DNA from: Euryarchaeota archaeon TMED192 | GTDB taxonomy: Archaea; Thermoplasmatota; Poseidoniia; Poseidoniales; Thalassarchaeaceae | NCBI GenBank assembly: GCA_002170775.2 | Contig: NHIP02000001.1 | Location: forward strand, 1 to 47,243 | Length of the DNA: 47,243 nucleotides | Direction: 5' to 3' | Shown here: piece by piece, positions 34,119-39,888 of the stretch | How the letters are laid out: the number at the start of each line of letters is the position of its first letter | How positions within the stretch are numbered: position 1 is the stretch's first letter | Translations under genes and position numbers: made by a program | Notes under the pieces: model-generated | What the model saw: only the letters and a program-made list of their open reading frames with translations | Database searches by the model: none | Told to the model about the DNA's origin: nothing

Positions 34119-35783
<1,665 letters not shown>

Positions 35784-35802: not shown

Positions 35803-36075
35803 TCAGAGGTCCAGTACCTTCGCTTGAAGGTCTTCGAATTTTATCAACATGTATTCTATCCCAAGCCATTCCACCTTTGTCCCACTGTACTGACGGTAGA
35901 TGACTCGATCATCGAGGTTTAGGCCCTCCACATCCGGCCCTATAGCGACCACCTTTCCAACATTCATCTTCTCCCGGGCTTCCTCAGGGAGTAAGAGCCC
36001 CGACTCGGTCTTCTCTGGTGCGTTTTCCATCTCAAGGAGGACCATTTCCCCCATTGGCTCTATTCCGACAGACAT
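35803..36075 (-). CDS. groS: Co-chaperonin GroES
   Basis: 90 aa. Typical order: IEPMGEMVLLEMENAPEKTESGLLLPEEAREKMNVGKVVAIGP, with the mobile-loop stretch (EKTESGLLLPE, carrying the GLLLP motif that contacts GroEL) and the barrel end IEYMLIKFEDLQAKV. Forms the heptameric lid of GroEL. It is the first gene of the groES-groEL operon, 19 bases upstream of groEL. An ATTGG/CCAAT palindrome sits in its promoter region. Confidence 0.95.
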   Translation of the reverse strand: MSVGIEPMGEMVLLEMENAPEKTESGLLLPEEAREKMNVGKVVAIGPDVEGLNLDDRVIYRQYSGTKVEWLGIEYMLIKFEDLQAKVLDL

Positions 36076-36187: not shown

Positions 36188-36943
36188 ATGAGTCCGGGTT
36201 ATGCGTGCCTATCCGTCGATGATATTCGTTCATCGATGGAAGAGAGGGGAACTCGTGTGATACTTGCAGCGGACTTCTTTACAATCTCAGAAATTTCGCA
36301 TATTCTCAATGAAGTGGGAAGTCATATCTGCATGCTGAAGACCCATGTTGATGGGATACACGACTTTGATCTGGATAGGTGGATGAATGAAGTGGTCGGC
36401 CCGGCGAGGGAAATGGGCGTTCTTATGTTTGAAGATAGGAAGTTCGCCGACATAGGTTACGTATCAAAAATCCAGATGCTCGGGCATCAAAGAATAGCTG
36501 AGTGGGCAGATGTGGTGACTGCGCATAGAATATCTGGTCCCGATATCGTAGAAGGTATTCATGAAGCCTGGAGAGAGTGTGGTAGAAAGGGTTCAGTGGC
36601 TATTTTGGCGCAAATGTCTAGTTCGGGCAATCTGTTGGATGAAGAATACTGCAAAAAGGTCGTGGAATCATGCCGTGGAATAGATGGTGTTTGTGGTTTC
36701 ATAGGGAATGGGAGCAATTCGAGCAATATTTCTGAATTACGGGGTTTGGTGGGTAGCGCTAAGATGATTCTGACACCAGGCATCAATCTGAATTCAGCAG
36801 AGGCTAGGATGGGTCAGAGATATGGACACCCCAGAGAGGCGATTGCGGCTGGTTCCGATGCAGTAATCGTGGGGTCGGGCATCATCAGAAATGCAGATCC
36901 CCTGGGTGCTGCTAAGAAATATGCTGAGGAGACCGCGGCATGA
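36188..36943 (+). CDS. pyrF: Orotidine-5'-phosphate decarboxylase
   Basis: Final step of UMP synthesis. 251 aa from ATG 36188; a TTG at 36158 is in frame but unlikely. The catalytic tetrad is visible: Lys51 in MLKTHVDGI, then Asp83, Lys85, Asp88 in FEDRKFADIG. The C-terminal phosphate-binding segment AIAAGSDAVIVGSGII completes the TIM barrel. The FEDRKFADIG wording resembles the eukaryotic/fungal and some archaeal class. Its stop overlaps the next small gene (ATGA). Confidence 0.93.
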   Translation: MSPGYACLSVDDIRSSMEERGTRVILAADFFTISEISHILNEVGSHICMLKTHVDGIHDFDLDRWMNEVVGPAREMGVLMFEDRKFADIGYVSKIQMLGHQRIAEWADVVTAHRISGPDIVEGIHEAWRECGRKGSVAILAQMSSSGNLLDEEYCKKVVESCRGIDGVCGFIGNGSNSSNISELRGLVGSAKMILTPGINLNSAEARMGQRYGHPREAIAAGSDAVIVGSGIIRNADPLGAAKKYAEETAA

Positions 36944-37161
36944 ATTCCATGCTCACAGATATTGCAGCCATTCTAGTCCTCTTCCTAATCGTTTTCCTTA
37001 TTTTCAGGGAAATCGTGTTCAGATGGCGTATTCGGTTAAGGGTGTTGATGGGGGATGCTGAGCTTCTGAACGACTCGCGGGTCAAGGTGATTGAAATTGT
37101 TCAGGCGCCTGAAGGAAGCATGGCTGTCGACGCGATAAGAATGATTCCCATAGAAGAGTGA
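36940..37161 (+). CDS. Small single-pass membrane protein
   Basis: 73 aa, coupled to pyrF by an ATGA overlap. One membrane helix (about residues 6-26, rich in Leu, Ile and Phe), then a basic juxtamembrane segment RWRIRLRVLMG and a short cytoplasmic domain ending in ...IRMIPIEE. The positive charges place the C-terminus inside. Function unknown. It ends 8 bases from the convergent receiver-domain gene. Confidence 0.55.
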   Translation: MNSMLTDIAAILVLFLIVFLIFREIVFRWRIRLRVLMGDAELLNDSRVKVIEIVQAPEGSMAVDAIRMIPIEE

Positions 37162-37169
37162 TCTCATTA

Positions 37170-37769
37170 TCAGATAGGGATGTATCCAGTGTATATCGCC
37201 CCAGCGACAGCCGCTCCGATAGTGAGGACGAGGAGTGTGAATCGGATGACAAAACGTCCCCTTCTCCTCGGTTTTTGTGATGGTACATGTGGAACAGGAT
37301 TGGCCGGCGTAGGGGGCGGCATCTCTGAGGGCTGTGATGATGGAGGGGGTGGATCGGGCAAGGGCGATCGGAAATTTTCCAAGCCGGGGGCGGGGGGTAT
37401 TACTCCCATTATCTTGGCCCACTCGGCTTCGACATCCGAGGCGATAATAGGAGTAATCAAGGTAGCCAGAGCGCCAATTGAGATGGATGTTTTATTTGCT
37501 ACCTCTACCCTATTTTTAGGGGTGATTATGACTATTCTTCCTTGGTTGTCATCAGCCCTTATCTGAAGAGCAGTATCATGTCCATCATTCGGTGGCAAAT
37601 CTATTCCCAGGAACACTACCCTTGGCCGTATCGCCCTGTATATGGAAACGGCGTCCTCGCTACTTGATGTGGATTCAGTGGCCCATCCCCTTTGCTTCAA
37701 TATCATTTTCAAACGGCCTGTGGTTATCGGGTCTCTTAATGCGATCAACGCACATGGTTTATCACTCAT
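37170..37769 (-). CDS. Receiver-domain protein with membrane-anchor tail, coupled to FtsY
   Basis: 199 aa. Residues 1-125 resemble a response-regulator receiver domain: Asp13 in the acidic pocket, likely phospho-acceptor Asp57 in VVFLGIDLPPNDG, and the conserved Lys85 in IITPKN. A Pro-rich linker (130-165, PPPPSSQ.. PPPTP), a basic cluster KPRRRGR and one C-terminal membrane helix (about 173-193) follow. There is no output DNA-binding domain. The start ATG shares one base with the ftsY stop, so the two genes are co-translated. I infer a membrane-tethered signal sensor or regulator near the SRP receptor. The second acidic residue normally paired with Asp13 is not seen, so phosphorylation is not certain. 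Confidence 0.7.
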   Translation of the reverse strand: MSDKPCALIALRDPITTGRLKMILKQRGWATESTSSSEDAVSIYRAIRPRVVFLGIDLPPNDGHDTALQIRADDNQGRIVIITPKNRVEVANKTSISIGALATLITPIIASDVEAEWAKIMGVIPPAPGLENFRSPLPDPPPPSSQPSEMPPPTPANPVPHVPSQKPRRRGRFVIRFTLLVLTIGAAVAGAIYTGYIPI

Positions 37770-39019
37770 CAGGCATCAACTCCAAAGATGTTGAATGCAG
37801 AGGAGTCGATGTCCTCAGAAAGCAATTTTGTTAGAAATTGTACTGGTTCGAAGTCTATCAGATCTTGATACTCTTGGCCAGAGCCTGCTAGTACGATCGG
37901 CCTGTTCGTAGAATGCGCGATTGACAGGGCTGCGCCGCCTCTGGCATCTGTATCTAACTTGGTCAAAACGGCGCCATCGAAATGTAATACGGATTGAAAT
38001 TTTCTTGCTTGTTCGACTGCATCATTACCTGCAAGAGCATCGCCTACGAACAGAACGATATGAGGCGATGCTACTCTGTGGACTTTCTTCAGTTCCTGCA
38101 TTAGATTGGTTTTGTTCTGCATGCGACCTGCTGTATCGATTATGACCACATCATCCCCTCTGGCTTTGGCACTGTCTATCGCGTCTCTTGCCACTGCGGC
38201 AGAATCGCCACCTCTCTGGCTTTTGACGCATCTTGCGCCGATTCGTTCGGCATGGTCGCTCAATTGGTCTATCGCGCCTGCGCGGAATGTGTCCGATGCT
38301 CCCAAAACGACAGAGAGACCACGTTGGATCAGTCTGTAGGATATCTTGGCTGCTGTGGTTGTTTTACCAGTCCCATTGACGCCGACGAGCATTATGACTA
38401 CCGGCGGTTCCTCTTCGAGCAGTGCTTCAATGGTCTGATCAAAGTCCCAATATGAAACTCTCAACAATGAATCTAATGCGGAGACAAGTGTTGCATCCAA
38501 GAGTTGCCCTACGTCTCCCTTCTTGGGAAGGGGGGCACCGATGAGTTTCGATCTCATCTCAGCAAGTACCGCGTCAACAGCGATATGCCCCATATCCGCT
38601 TCTAGAAGGGTGGTCTCAAGTTCTGACATTATTTCTTCAAAGGCGGGTGTTGCTGATATTCTTCTCCGAGAGGGTTGGTTCACTATTTTATCGAGGTCGA
38701 TCGACAACCCCTGTGATGGTTTTGGAACCAATTTAGATGACTTGGTTTCAGGAGAAGGCTTCACTGGTACTTTGATTGACTTCGAGGTTCGATCTCTGAG
38801 ACGTCTCGCCCGTTTATTGGAAGGGGTTTCAATTGCCTCCAGGGATTCGTGGGTTTCCCATTCGCTTCCGCTCCCAAGATCATCTTGGTTCTGCGGTTGG
38901 GGAAATTCTTGTAACTCATCGATTACTTGGGGTTCTTGTTCTTCTTGCTCCTCCCCCGCCAGAGCATCGGGGTCCTCGATTCTCTTAGCACTGCGTCTAA
39001 ACCGACTTAGAAAGCCCAT
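37769..39019 (-). CDS. ftsY: Signal recognition particle receptor FtsY
   Basis: 416 aa. An acidic, Gln/Glu-rich N-terminal region (1-65) and a basic linker precede the NG domain. The G domain shows G1 GVNGTGKTTTA (213-223), DTFRAGA (243-249), DTAGR (295-299) and TKLD (353-356). The GTPase docks SRP-ribosome complexes at the membrane. It forms part of the archaeal LX / prefoldin alpha / ftsY cluster, but LX here points the other way. Its stop overlaps the receiver-domain gene. Confidence 0.95.
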   Translation of the reverse strand: MGFLSRFRRSAKRIEDPDALAGEEQEEQEPQVIDELQEFPQPQNQDDLGSGSEWETHESLEAIETPSNKRARRLRDRTSKSIKVPVKPSPETKSSKLVPKPSQGLSIDLDKIVNQPSRRRISATPAFEEIMSELETTLLEADMGHIAVDAVLAEMRSKLIGAPLPKKGDVGQLLDATLVSALDSLLRVSYWDFDQTIEALLEEEPPVVIMLVGVNGTGKTTTAAKISYRLIQRGLSVVLGASDTFRAGAIDQLSDHAERIGARCVKSQRGGDSAAVARDAIDSAKARGDDVVIIDTAGRMQNKTNLMQELKKVHRVASPHIVLFVGDALAGNDAVEQARKFQSVLHFDGAVLTKLDTDARGGAALSIAHSTNRPIVLAGSGQEYQDLIDFEPVQFLTKLLSEDIDSSAFNIFGVDA

Positions 39020-39028
39020 GGGTCCACC

Positions 39029-39541
39029 TCAATCGTCGAGCGTTAGCTCAGTTCCTCTCTTGCGTCTCGGAGTTCGCTTCTTTGGTTGGCTTTGTGGAAT
39101 CTCTTGATCTGTTGATTCCTTCGGGGTTTCAGAAGTGGTATCTAATTGGTGGTTTTCGATTTGGTTGGTGAGTTCTAGAATTGTGGACTCTATTGCTCTC
39201 GATTCTTCAACCATGCTTTCTATCAGGTTCGCCAGTTCCGTGTTCCTCTGATTCAACATCTGTATGGCCCTTTCTTGAGTTGTCTCAATCTGGACGCCGG
39301 ATCCGATGTCTATTACGGGGAGTGCTCCATCTTCGATGGTCACTGGAATCTGGACGCCGCTTCCAAGGGGGATCATTGTACGTTTGTTGGTCTGCGTCGC
39401 AGTGGCTTCAAGAGTTCCTTGGGCCCTAGTTTGTTCATCGAGGAGTGTTGAAAGCCGTTCTAATTGTGCTCTAAGTGCCTCTTGTCTGGAGTGGTTGGCT
39501 TCTATGAGGCGGGAAATTCGCCTTGCTTCGTCTGGCTCCAT
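39029..39541 (-). CDS. pfdA: Prefoldin alpha subunit
   Basis: 170 aa from ATG 39541 (the frame extends to 39592). Coiled-coil helix (about 1-45), a central beta-hairpin stretch with repeated IPLGSGVQIPV and IDIGSGVQIET, and a second coiled-coil helix (about 85-125), the layout of prefoldin alpha, which hands unfolded proteins to chaperonins. The C-terminal 45 residues form a polar, basic tail (PKKRTPRRKRG), longer than usual. ftsY follows after 9 bases. Presence of prefoldin next to group I GroEL is notable. Confidence 0.85.
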   Translation of the reverse strand: MEPDEARRISRLIEANHSRQEALRAQLERLSTLLDEQTRAQGTLEATATQTNKRTMIPLGSGVQIPVTIEDGALPVIDIGSGVQIETTQERAIQMLNQRNTELANLIESMVEESRAIESTILELTNQIENHQLDTTSETPKESTDQEIPQSQPKKRTPRRKRGTELTLDD

Positions 39542-39660
39542 GGGTGTGTGTTGTAGGGCATCTATTCTAAACGATGGGGGTATTAGATACAAAGATGGTT
39601 TGTTGTAGGGTGGTTCGAAGCATCCGTGCGGATTAAATCAGGTTCCCTCGACGGATAGGC

Positions 39661-39888
39661 ATGGTCAAGGCGTTTAGAGCGGTCGGAACGTTTCGAAGCG
39701 GTGGGAAGAATCAGCCGTTTACAATAGACGTGATAGCTGATGATGAAGATGGGGCGATGGAATACATCTACTCCAACTTCGGCAGCAGGCATGGTGTGAA
39801 GAGGAGATTCGTGGTGGTTTCGTCGATGGGTGAAATCGACCCCTCCGAGTCAACAGATCCTCGTGTCATTTCTGCTTTCAGAGAATAA
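39661..39888 (+). CDS. rpl18a: Ribosomal protein LX (L18Ae/L20A)
   Basis: 75 aa, full length for archaeal LX. Recognisable from MVKAFRAVGTFRSGGKNQPFTIDV and the GSRHGVKRR segment. It is a large-subunit protein. Divergent from prefoldin alpha, in contrast to the common archaeal co-directional order. Leader between the two is about 120 bp. Confidence 0.92.
   Translation: MVKAFRAVGTFRSGGKNQPFTIDVIADDEDGAMEYIYSNFGSRHGVKRRFVVVSSMGEIDPSESTDPRVISAFRE

Follow-up and report, generated by a model that had tools for sequence, protein, structure and literature searches.

Receiver domains lacking the phosphorylatable aspartate are termed aspartate-less receivers (ALR), and those lacking any of the five active-site residues are termed pseudo-receivers (PsR; PMC12632262). 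Both kinds of domain are well known, with serine, glycine and alanine being among the commoner replacements of the aspartate (PMC4395418; PMC12632262). About 10-15% of archaeal receivers were classified as ALRs, and the authors of a 2025 review stated that they were unaware of any published work on what archaeal PsR domains do (PMC12632262). In receivers, the positions two residues behind the phosphoacceptor aspartate (D+2) and two residues behind the conserved Thr/Ser (T+2) border the active site and tune the kinetics (PMC12632262). An example of a pseudo-receiver acting as a docking module is FrzS from Myxococcus xanthus, the pseudo-receiver of which, according to the review, docks SgmX after binding of MglA-GTP (PMC12632262).

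Protein targeting by the signal recognition particle (SRP) is a separate field, in which the prokaryotic SRP receptor is described as consisting of FtsY only, with no membrane subunit (PMC2905702; PMC2780400). A search of open-access papers, outside of which most subscription journals lie, returned no relevant literature on ftsY in connection with receiver domains or with marine group II, and no paper on such a gene pair. Here, we analysed a stretch of 47,243 nucleotides from an archaeon of the order Poseidoniales, i.e., marine group II (the window; all coordinates refer to it), in which a receiver-like protein is encoded directly behind ftsY.

The ftsY locus

The gene of the receiver-like protein (37170..37769, minus strand) encodes 199 amino acids and was characterized as an open reading frame, by Pfam, AlphaFold and Foldseek and by selection analysis. 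It follows ftsY (37769..39019, minus strand), which encodes the SRP receptor GTPase of 416 amino acids as identified by Pfam SRP54 (E-value 1e-69) and by NCBIfam TIGR00064 above its cut-off. The preliminary description had reported that both genes overlap by one base (37769..37769, minus strand), which is indeed the case: the ftsY stop codon TGA occupies 37771-37769 and shares its final base with the ATG of the following gene, resulting in the sequence TGATG. Upstream of ftsY lies pfdA (39029..39592, minus strand), encoding the prefoldin alpha subunit as judged by Pfam Prefoldin (E-value 1e-15), NCBIfam TIGR00293 and synteny, and the three genes form a string on the minus strand in the order pfdA, ftsY, pseudo-receiver, all in one direction. 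We consider it likely that ftsY and the pseudo-receiver gene are co-transcribed.

Downstream and convergent to this string are an open reading frame for a 73-amino-acid membrane protein and pyrF. The former (36940-37161, plus strand) encodes a single predicted helix, overlaps the end of pyrF, is kept in many members of the order and has no match in Pfam or NCBIfam. The gene of ribosomal protein L18a (39661-39888, plus strand) is divergent from pfdA in the window, but the order's other family has it upstream of pfdA-ftsY in the same direction. Further along the window, the gene at 34119-35783 (minus strand) reads as a bacterial-type GroEL with a Gly-Met-rich tail in an archaeal genome, and the one at 35803-36075 (minus strand) as its GroES partner.

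Domain architecture of the pseudo-receiver

It had been proposed that in the protein (37170..37769, minus strand) a receiver-like domain is joined through a Pro-rich linker to a membrane helix at the C-terminus, and this architecture was confirmed by Pfam, AlphaFold and hydropathy. The receiver-like (beta-alpha)5 domain comprises residues 5-121 (37407..37757, minus strand). Pfam Response_reg matches residues 13-105 with an E-value of 3e-9, exceeding the gathering cut-off, and is the sole Pfam match of the protein above cut-off. An AlphaFold model built with 30 homologues shows the (beta-alpha)5 receiver fold with a pLDDT of approximately 97 over residues 11-120, and Foldseek matched it to the receivers of CheY, Spo0F, DivK and FrzS with TM-scores by target of 0.79-0.89. 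Directly behind the domain follows a family signature I-P-x-A-P-G-L (residues 124-130; 37380..37400, minus strand), in which P125, A127, P128 and G129 are invariant in the 68 family members compared. Trp117 is likewise invariant and family-specific, as is this Pro125/Ala127-Pro128-Gly129 cap.

The Pro-rich linker with its basic end (residues 131-169; 37263..37379, minus strand) is modelled with a pLDDT of approximately 61-78 and shows relaxed selection (pN 0.14-0.27). It is followed by the membrane helix (residues 170-194; 37188..37262, minus strand), which was assigned by DSSP on the AlphaFold model and by hydropathy and is preceded by a Lys/Arg cluster. Among 72 homologous loci, the hydropathy of this helix exceeds 1.6 in 68 and ranges from 1.46 to 1.59 in the remaining four; in the homologues it lies at most 35 residues from the protein end and is usually preceded by a Lys/Arg cluster as well. 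The basic flank of a membrane helix resides on the cytoplasmic side according to the positive-inside rule, and the receiver-like domain would therefore face the cytoplasm. In the pseudo-receiver of one genus (L047:2503-3396; L076), an EF-hand pair is inserted behind the Pro-rich linker and before the membrane helix.

Active-site residues and absence of a kinase partner

The preliminary description had named Asp57 and Lys85 in the receiver-like domain and proposed Asp57 as the residue to be tested for phosphorylation. Both residues are present; their positions, however, are not those of the canonical active site. In HMMER alignments against Pyrococcus horikoshii CheY and Spo0F, which run without a gap through strand beta3, it is Gly55 (37605..37607, minus strand) that lies beneath the phosphorylated aspartate. 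In the AlphaFold model, strand beta3 consists of residues 51-55 with Gly55 as its last residue, i.e., in the place of the phosphoacceptor. Sixty-eight family members were aligned by MAFFT with E. coli CheY as reference; the sequence used is the one we take to be that of E. coli CheY, and its D57, T87 and K109 land in the expected columns. The phosphoacceptor column of this alignment contains Ser in 26, Gly in 23, Ala in 15, Thr in three and Val in one member, and Asp in none of the 68. Asp57 (37599..37601, minus strand) thereby takes position D+2, where the family has Asp in 56, Asn in 11 and Glu in one member. Based on the alignment register, the position in the strand and the variation within the family, we rejected Asp57 as phosphoacceptor.

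The acidic DD pair behind beta1 is missing in the window protein, which has Leu11-Arg12 instead, and the first of these aspartates (DD1-Asp) is present in 26/68 members. The position of the canonical lysine at the end of beta5 is occupied by Thr106 (37452..37454, minus strand; Thr in 41, Lys in 26 and Ser in one member). The conserved Thr/Ser at the end of beta4 is present, with Thr83 beneath the threonine in the HMMER alignment, from which this column was taken since the MAFFT row has one gap before beta4; it is variable in the family, with Thr/Ser in 33 of 68. Lys85 (37515..37517, minus strand) falls on T+2, where Arg (31) and Lys (29) prevail. The presence of an acid at D+2 and a basic residue at T+2 in the family makes it plausible that an acid-base contact bridges the vestigial pocket; by sequence, Asp57 and Lys85 could form it in the window protein. 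Recognition by PF00072, the receiver fold and the missing phosphoacceptor aspartate are the features by which ALR/PsR domains are recognized, and the window protein is almost certainly an aspartate-less pseudo-receiver. No sampled member of the order has the aspartate, and the simplest explanation is a loss that preceded their common ancestor.

The genomic context agrees with this. The Response_reg match of the window protein is the only one in the whole assembly of 1.44 Mb (87% complete), and the two HATPase_c proteins encoded in it are GyrB and topoisomerase VI B as judged by sequence and length. Searches with HATPase_c and HisKA did not find a histidine kinase in this 87% complete genome; across the order HisKA was found in 2/60 genomes, with 12 of 14 control genomes being positive. 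The view of a phospho-signalling protein, as put forward in the preliminary description, is thus contradicted by the missing phosphoacceptor aspartate and the missing histidine kinase.

Distribution, linkage to ftsY and selection

The closest records are from Poseidoniales. Of 293 Poseidoniales genomes, 236 contain a homologue, among them each of the 35 with a completeness of at least 90%. Twenty genomes without the pseudo-receiver were inspected for ftsY: 19 are devoid of ftsY as well and the 20th contains an ftsY fragment ending at the contig end, so that the absences look like assembly gaps and a true gene loss was rejected. In 13 genomes of genus g7 (G024, G026, G032, G062, G071 and others; 72-89% complete), the whole ftsY/pseudo-receiver locus is missing. 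As ftsY is expected to be essential, this points to a systematic gap in assembly or binning or to a strongly diverged locus. Searches for viral relatives found none.

In 66 of 68 inspected loci (65 of 67 in other genomes plus the window), ftsY is located upstream on the same strand, and the pairing anticipated by the preliminary description is thus conserved across marine group II. The junctions consist of a 1- or 4-base overlap in close relatives, of a short gap, or of an intervening DUF1844 gene. The preliminary description had further named a non-conserved Asp57 or the absence of the pair in relatives as observations speaking against it. Neither was found, as Asp57 is Asp in 56/68 members and the pair is kept; however, Asp57 is conserved without being the phosphorylation site, and its conservation is therefore the wrong test of phosphorylation. 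The two exceptional loci may be misassemblies of metagenome bins. In G050, ftsY and the pseudo-receiver gene are both retained on separate contigs (L138 and L139), with a UvrA-like gene behind ftsY and moeA before the pseudo-receiver gene; in G184, other genes precede the pseudo-receiver gene and the assembly contains no complete ftsY. Among 11 outgroup loci from other families of the phylum, no receiver was found beside ftsY within approximately 1.5 kb on each side, contig permitting, suggesting that the pairing is, as far as sampled, a trait specific for the order and not ancient in archaea. No natural fusion of FtsY with the pseudo-receiver or with DUF1844 occurs among the loci inspected; the long, seemingly fused frames in L011 (a run of N), L028/L030 and L070 were artefacts that resulted from N bases or from reading beyond the stop.

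In a comparison among five close relatives, pN of the receiver part is 0.01-0.07 vs. a pS of 0.28-0.49, resulting in a pN/pS of roughly 0.03-0.14, and this part is under strong purifying selection. This and the conservation across the order show that the open reading frame of 199 amino acids did not arise by chance.

DUF1844 and evolution within the order

Of 60 genomes from the order, 33 contain a DUF1844 (PF08899) gene, which by coordinates adjoins the pseudo-receiver gene in 32 of these 33. In about half of the order (L043, L044, L048 and others), it is positioned between ftsY and the pseudo-receiver gene. All 26 members that keep both DD1-Asp and the canonical lysine have DUF1844, and all 41 members that lost both are devoid of it. 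On the FtsY tree this pattern corresponds to one change, and it therefore represents a coincident loss on one branch, which is unreplicated as evidence for an interaction.

Possible roles of the pseudo-receiver

The absence of a phosphoacceptor and of a kinase together with the strong selection on the fold are most simply explained by a constitutive docking surface at the membrane. We tentatively favor that the pseudo-receiver is a phosphorylation-independent, membrane-tethered docking module that would serve FtsY and SRP-dependent targeting. The C-terminal helix would hold the domain at the membrane on its cytoplasmic side, and in place of a phosphorylation switch a constant protein-docking surface would be presented on a flexible linker. 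This surface may involve the invariant Trp117 and the APGL cap, and the dead pocket might be stabilized by the contact of Asp57 and Lys85. By this, the pseudo-receiver could recruit or position FtsY, the SRP-ribosome complex or the DUF1844 protein at the membrane. FtsY is the leading candidate partner as the conserved neighbor, followed by DUF1844. It is gene order that suggests a functional tie to FtsY, and a role related to FtsY is quite possible, though not to be called probable.

The docking reading is weakened by the following observations: no natural fusion with FtsY was found, FtsY has a membrane helix of its own, the genes are unlinked in G050, and ftsY occurs without the pseudo-receiver outside Poseidoniales. 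The N-terminus of FtsY in the window (ftsY, 37769..39019, minus strand) forms a basic amphipathic helix MGFLSRFRRSAKRI (MGLFDRFRKK...) followed by an acidic region, and a comparison of N-termini revealed such a helix in nearly all FtsY proteins of the order, so that a separate membrane anchor is not obviously needed. In FtsY proteins across the order, a Trp-Asp/Glu motif (EEWDD, SEWDD, ESEWE) recurs in the acidic region and may be a short binding motif.

In an alternative reading, the membrane-anchored pseudo-receiver has a role unrelated to FtsY and is kept in a housekeeping cluster by general synteny and shared transcription, which we regard as a real possibility of somewhat less than even weight. 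Next to the helix of FtsY, it is supported by G050 and possibly G184 keeping the gene apart from ftsY and by the conservation of pyrF, pfdA and rpl18a as neighbors; the conserved pyrF neighbor implies that general synteny may account for part of the ftsY linkage. However, the linkage to ftsY (66/68) outlasts the widely conserved one to pyrF: roughly ten loci of sufficient length have no pyrF downstream. Moreover, both genes lie on the same strand with an overlap, a short gap or one gene between them, and the genome of the window encodes no other receiver.

A more specific version of the docking module, in which the tail-anchored pseudo-receiver is the dedicated membrane subunit of the SRP receptor in marine group II, with DUF1844 as partner in roughly half of the genomes sampled and constitutive docking in place of phosphorylation, appears unlikely. 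Still less probable is a regulator or sensor instead of an anchor, the modified pocket of which would bind a small ligand or the DUF1844 protein and modulate FtsY at the membrane. This would agree with the retention of DD1-Asp and lysine in the presence of DUF1844 (26/26) and their loss in its absence (41/41), with the EF-hand pair added in one genus, and with ligand binding by some bacterial pseudo-receivers such as ShkA, which is reported to bind c-di-GMP (PMC7010744). However, the DUF1844 coincidence traces to one event on the FtsY tree and is thus not replicated, and no ligand site was identified in the pseudo-receiver. A working phospho-receiver controlling FtsY after phosphorylation of Asp57 by a kinase or a small phosphodonor is very improbable: Asp57 is Asp in 56/68 members, the fold is that of a receiver, and some members retain DD1-Asp together with the active-site lysine, but three independent registers place Asp57 at D+2, where Asn (11) and Glu (1) also occur, the window protein is devoid of the DD pair, D and K, its genome is devoid of a histidine kinase, and HisKA is found in only 2/60 genomes of the order. 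A decaying, functionless relic, as the stepwise loss of active-site residues might suggest, is refuted by the retention in 35/35 near-complete genomes, the pN/pS of roughly 0.03-0.14 and the invariant family signature, leaving it next to no probability.

Comparison with known systems

Like the described ALR/PsR domains, the window protein has a receiver fold detected by PF00072 without a phosphorylatable aspartate and is an orphan with no partner kinase. Those studied are mostly bacterial, whereas the family described here is archaeal, has a helical membrane anchor at its C-terminus and occurs in linkage with ftsY. The class of ALR/PsR domains is known already; what is new is the architecture and the linkage to ftsY. 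For annotation this means that the window protein should not be named a phospho-signalling response regulator.

The closest matches in fold and sequence are the stand-alone receivers CheY and Spo0F. Unlike the window protein, these carry D, DD, T and K and are soluble phospho-switches. FrzS (PDB 2gkg, 2i6f) is among the matches in sequence and fold and provides a precedent for a pseudo-receiver as docking module. However, FrzS is a polar motility protein, its architecture has nothing in common with that of the window protein apart from the domain, and there is no link to ftsY.

The likeness to SR-beta, the membrane-anchored partner of the FtsY/SR-alpha GTPase, lies in the conjectured role alone. 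SR-beta is itself a GTPase and not homologous, and the pseudo-receiver has no Arf-like GTPase domain, Response_reg being its only Pfam match above cut-off. By analogy, the pseudo-receiver would be an archaeal counterpart of the SR-beta anchor in role, not in descent, and a receiver fold would, if this is true, have been recruited to protein targeting. The function of archaeal PsR domains and a membrane subunit of the SRP receptor are two gaps that can both be addressed with this one pair of genes in abundant marine archaea.
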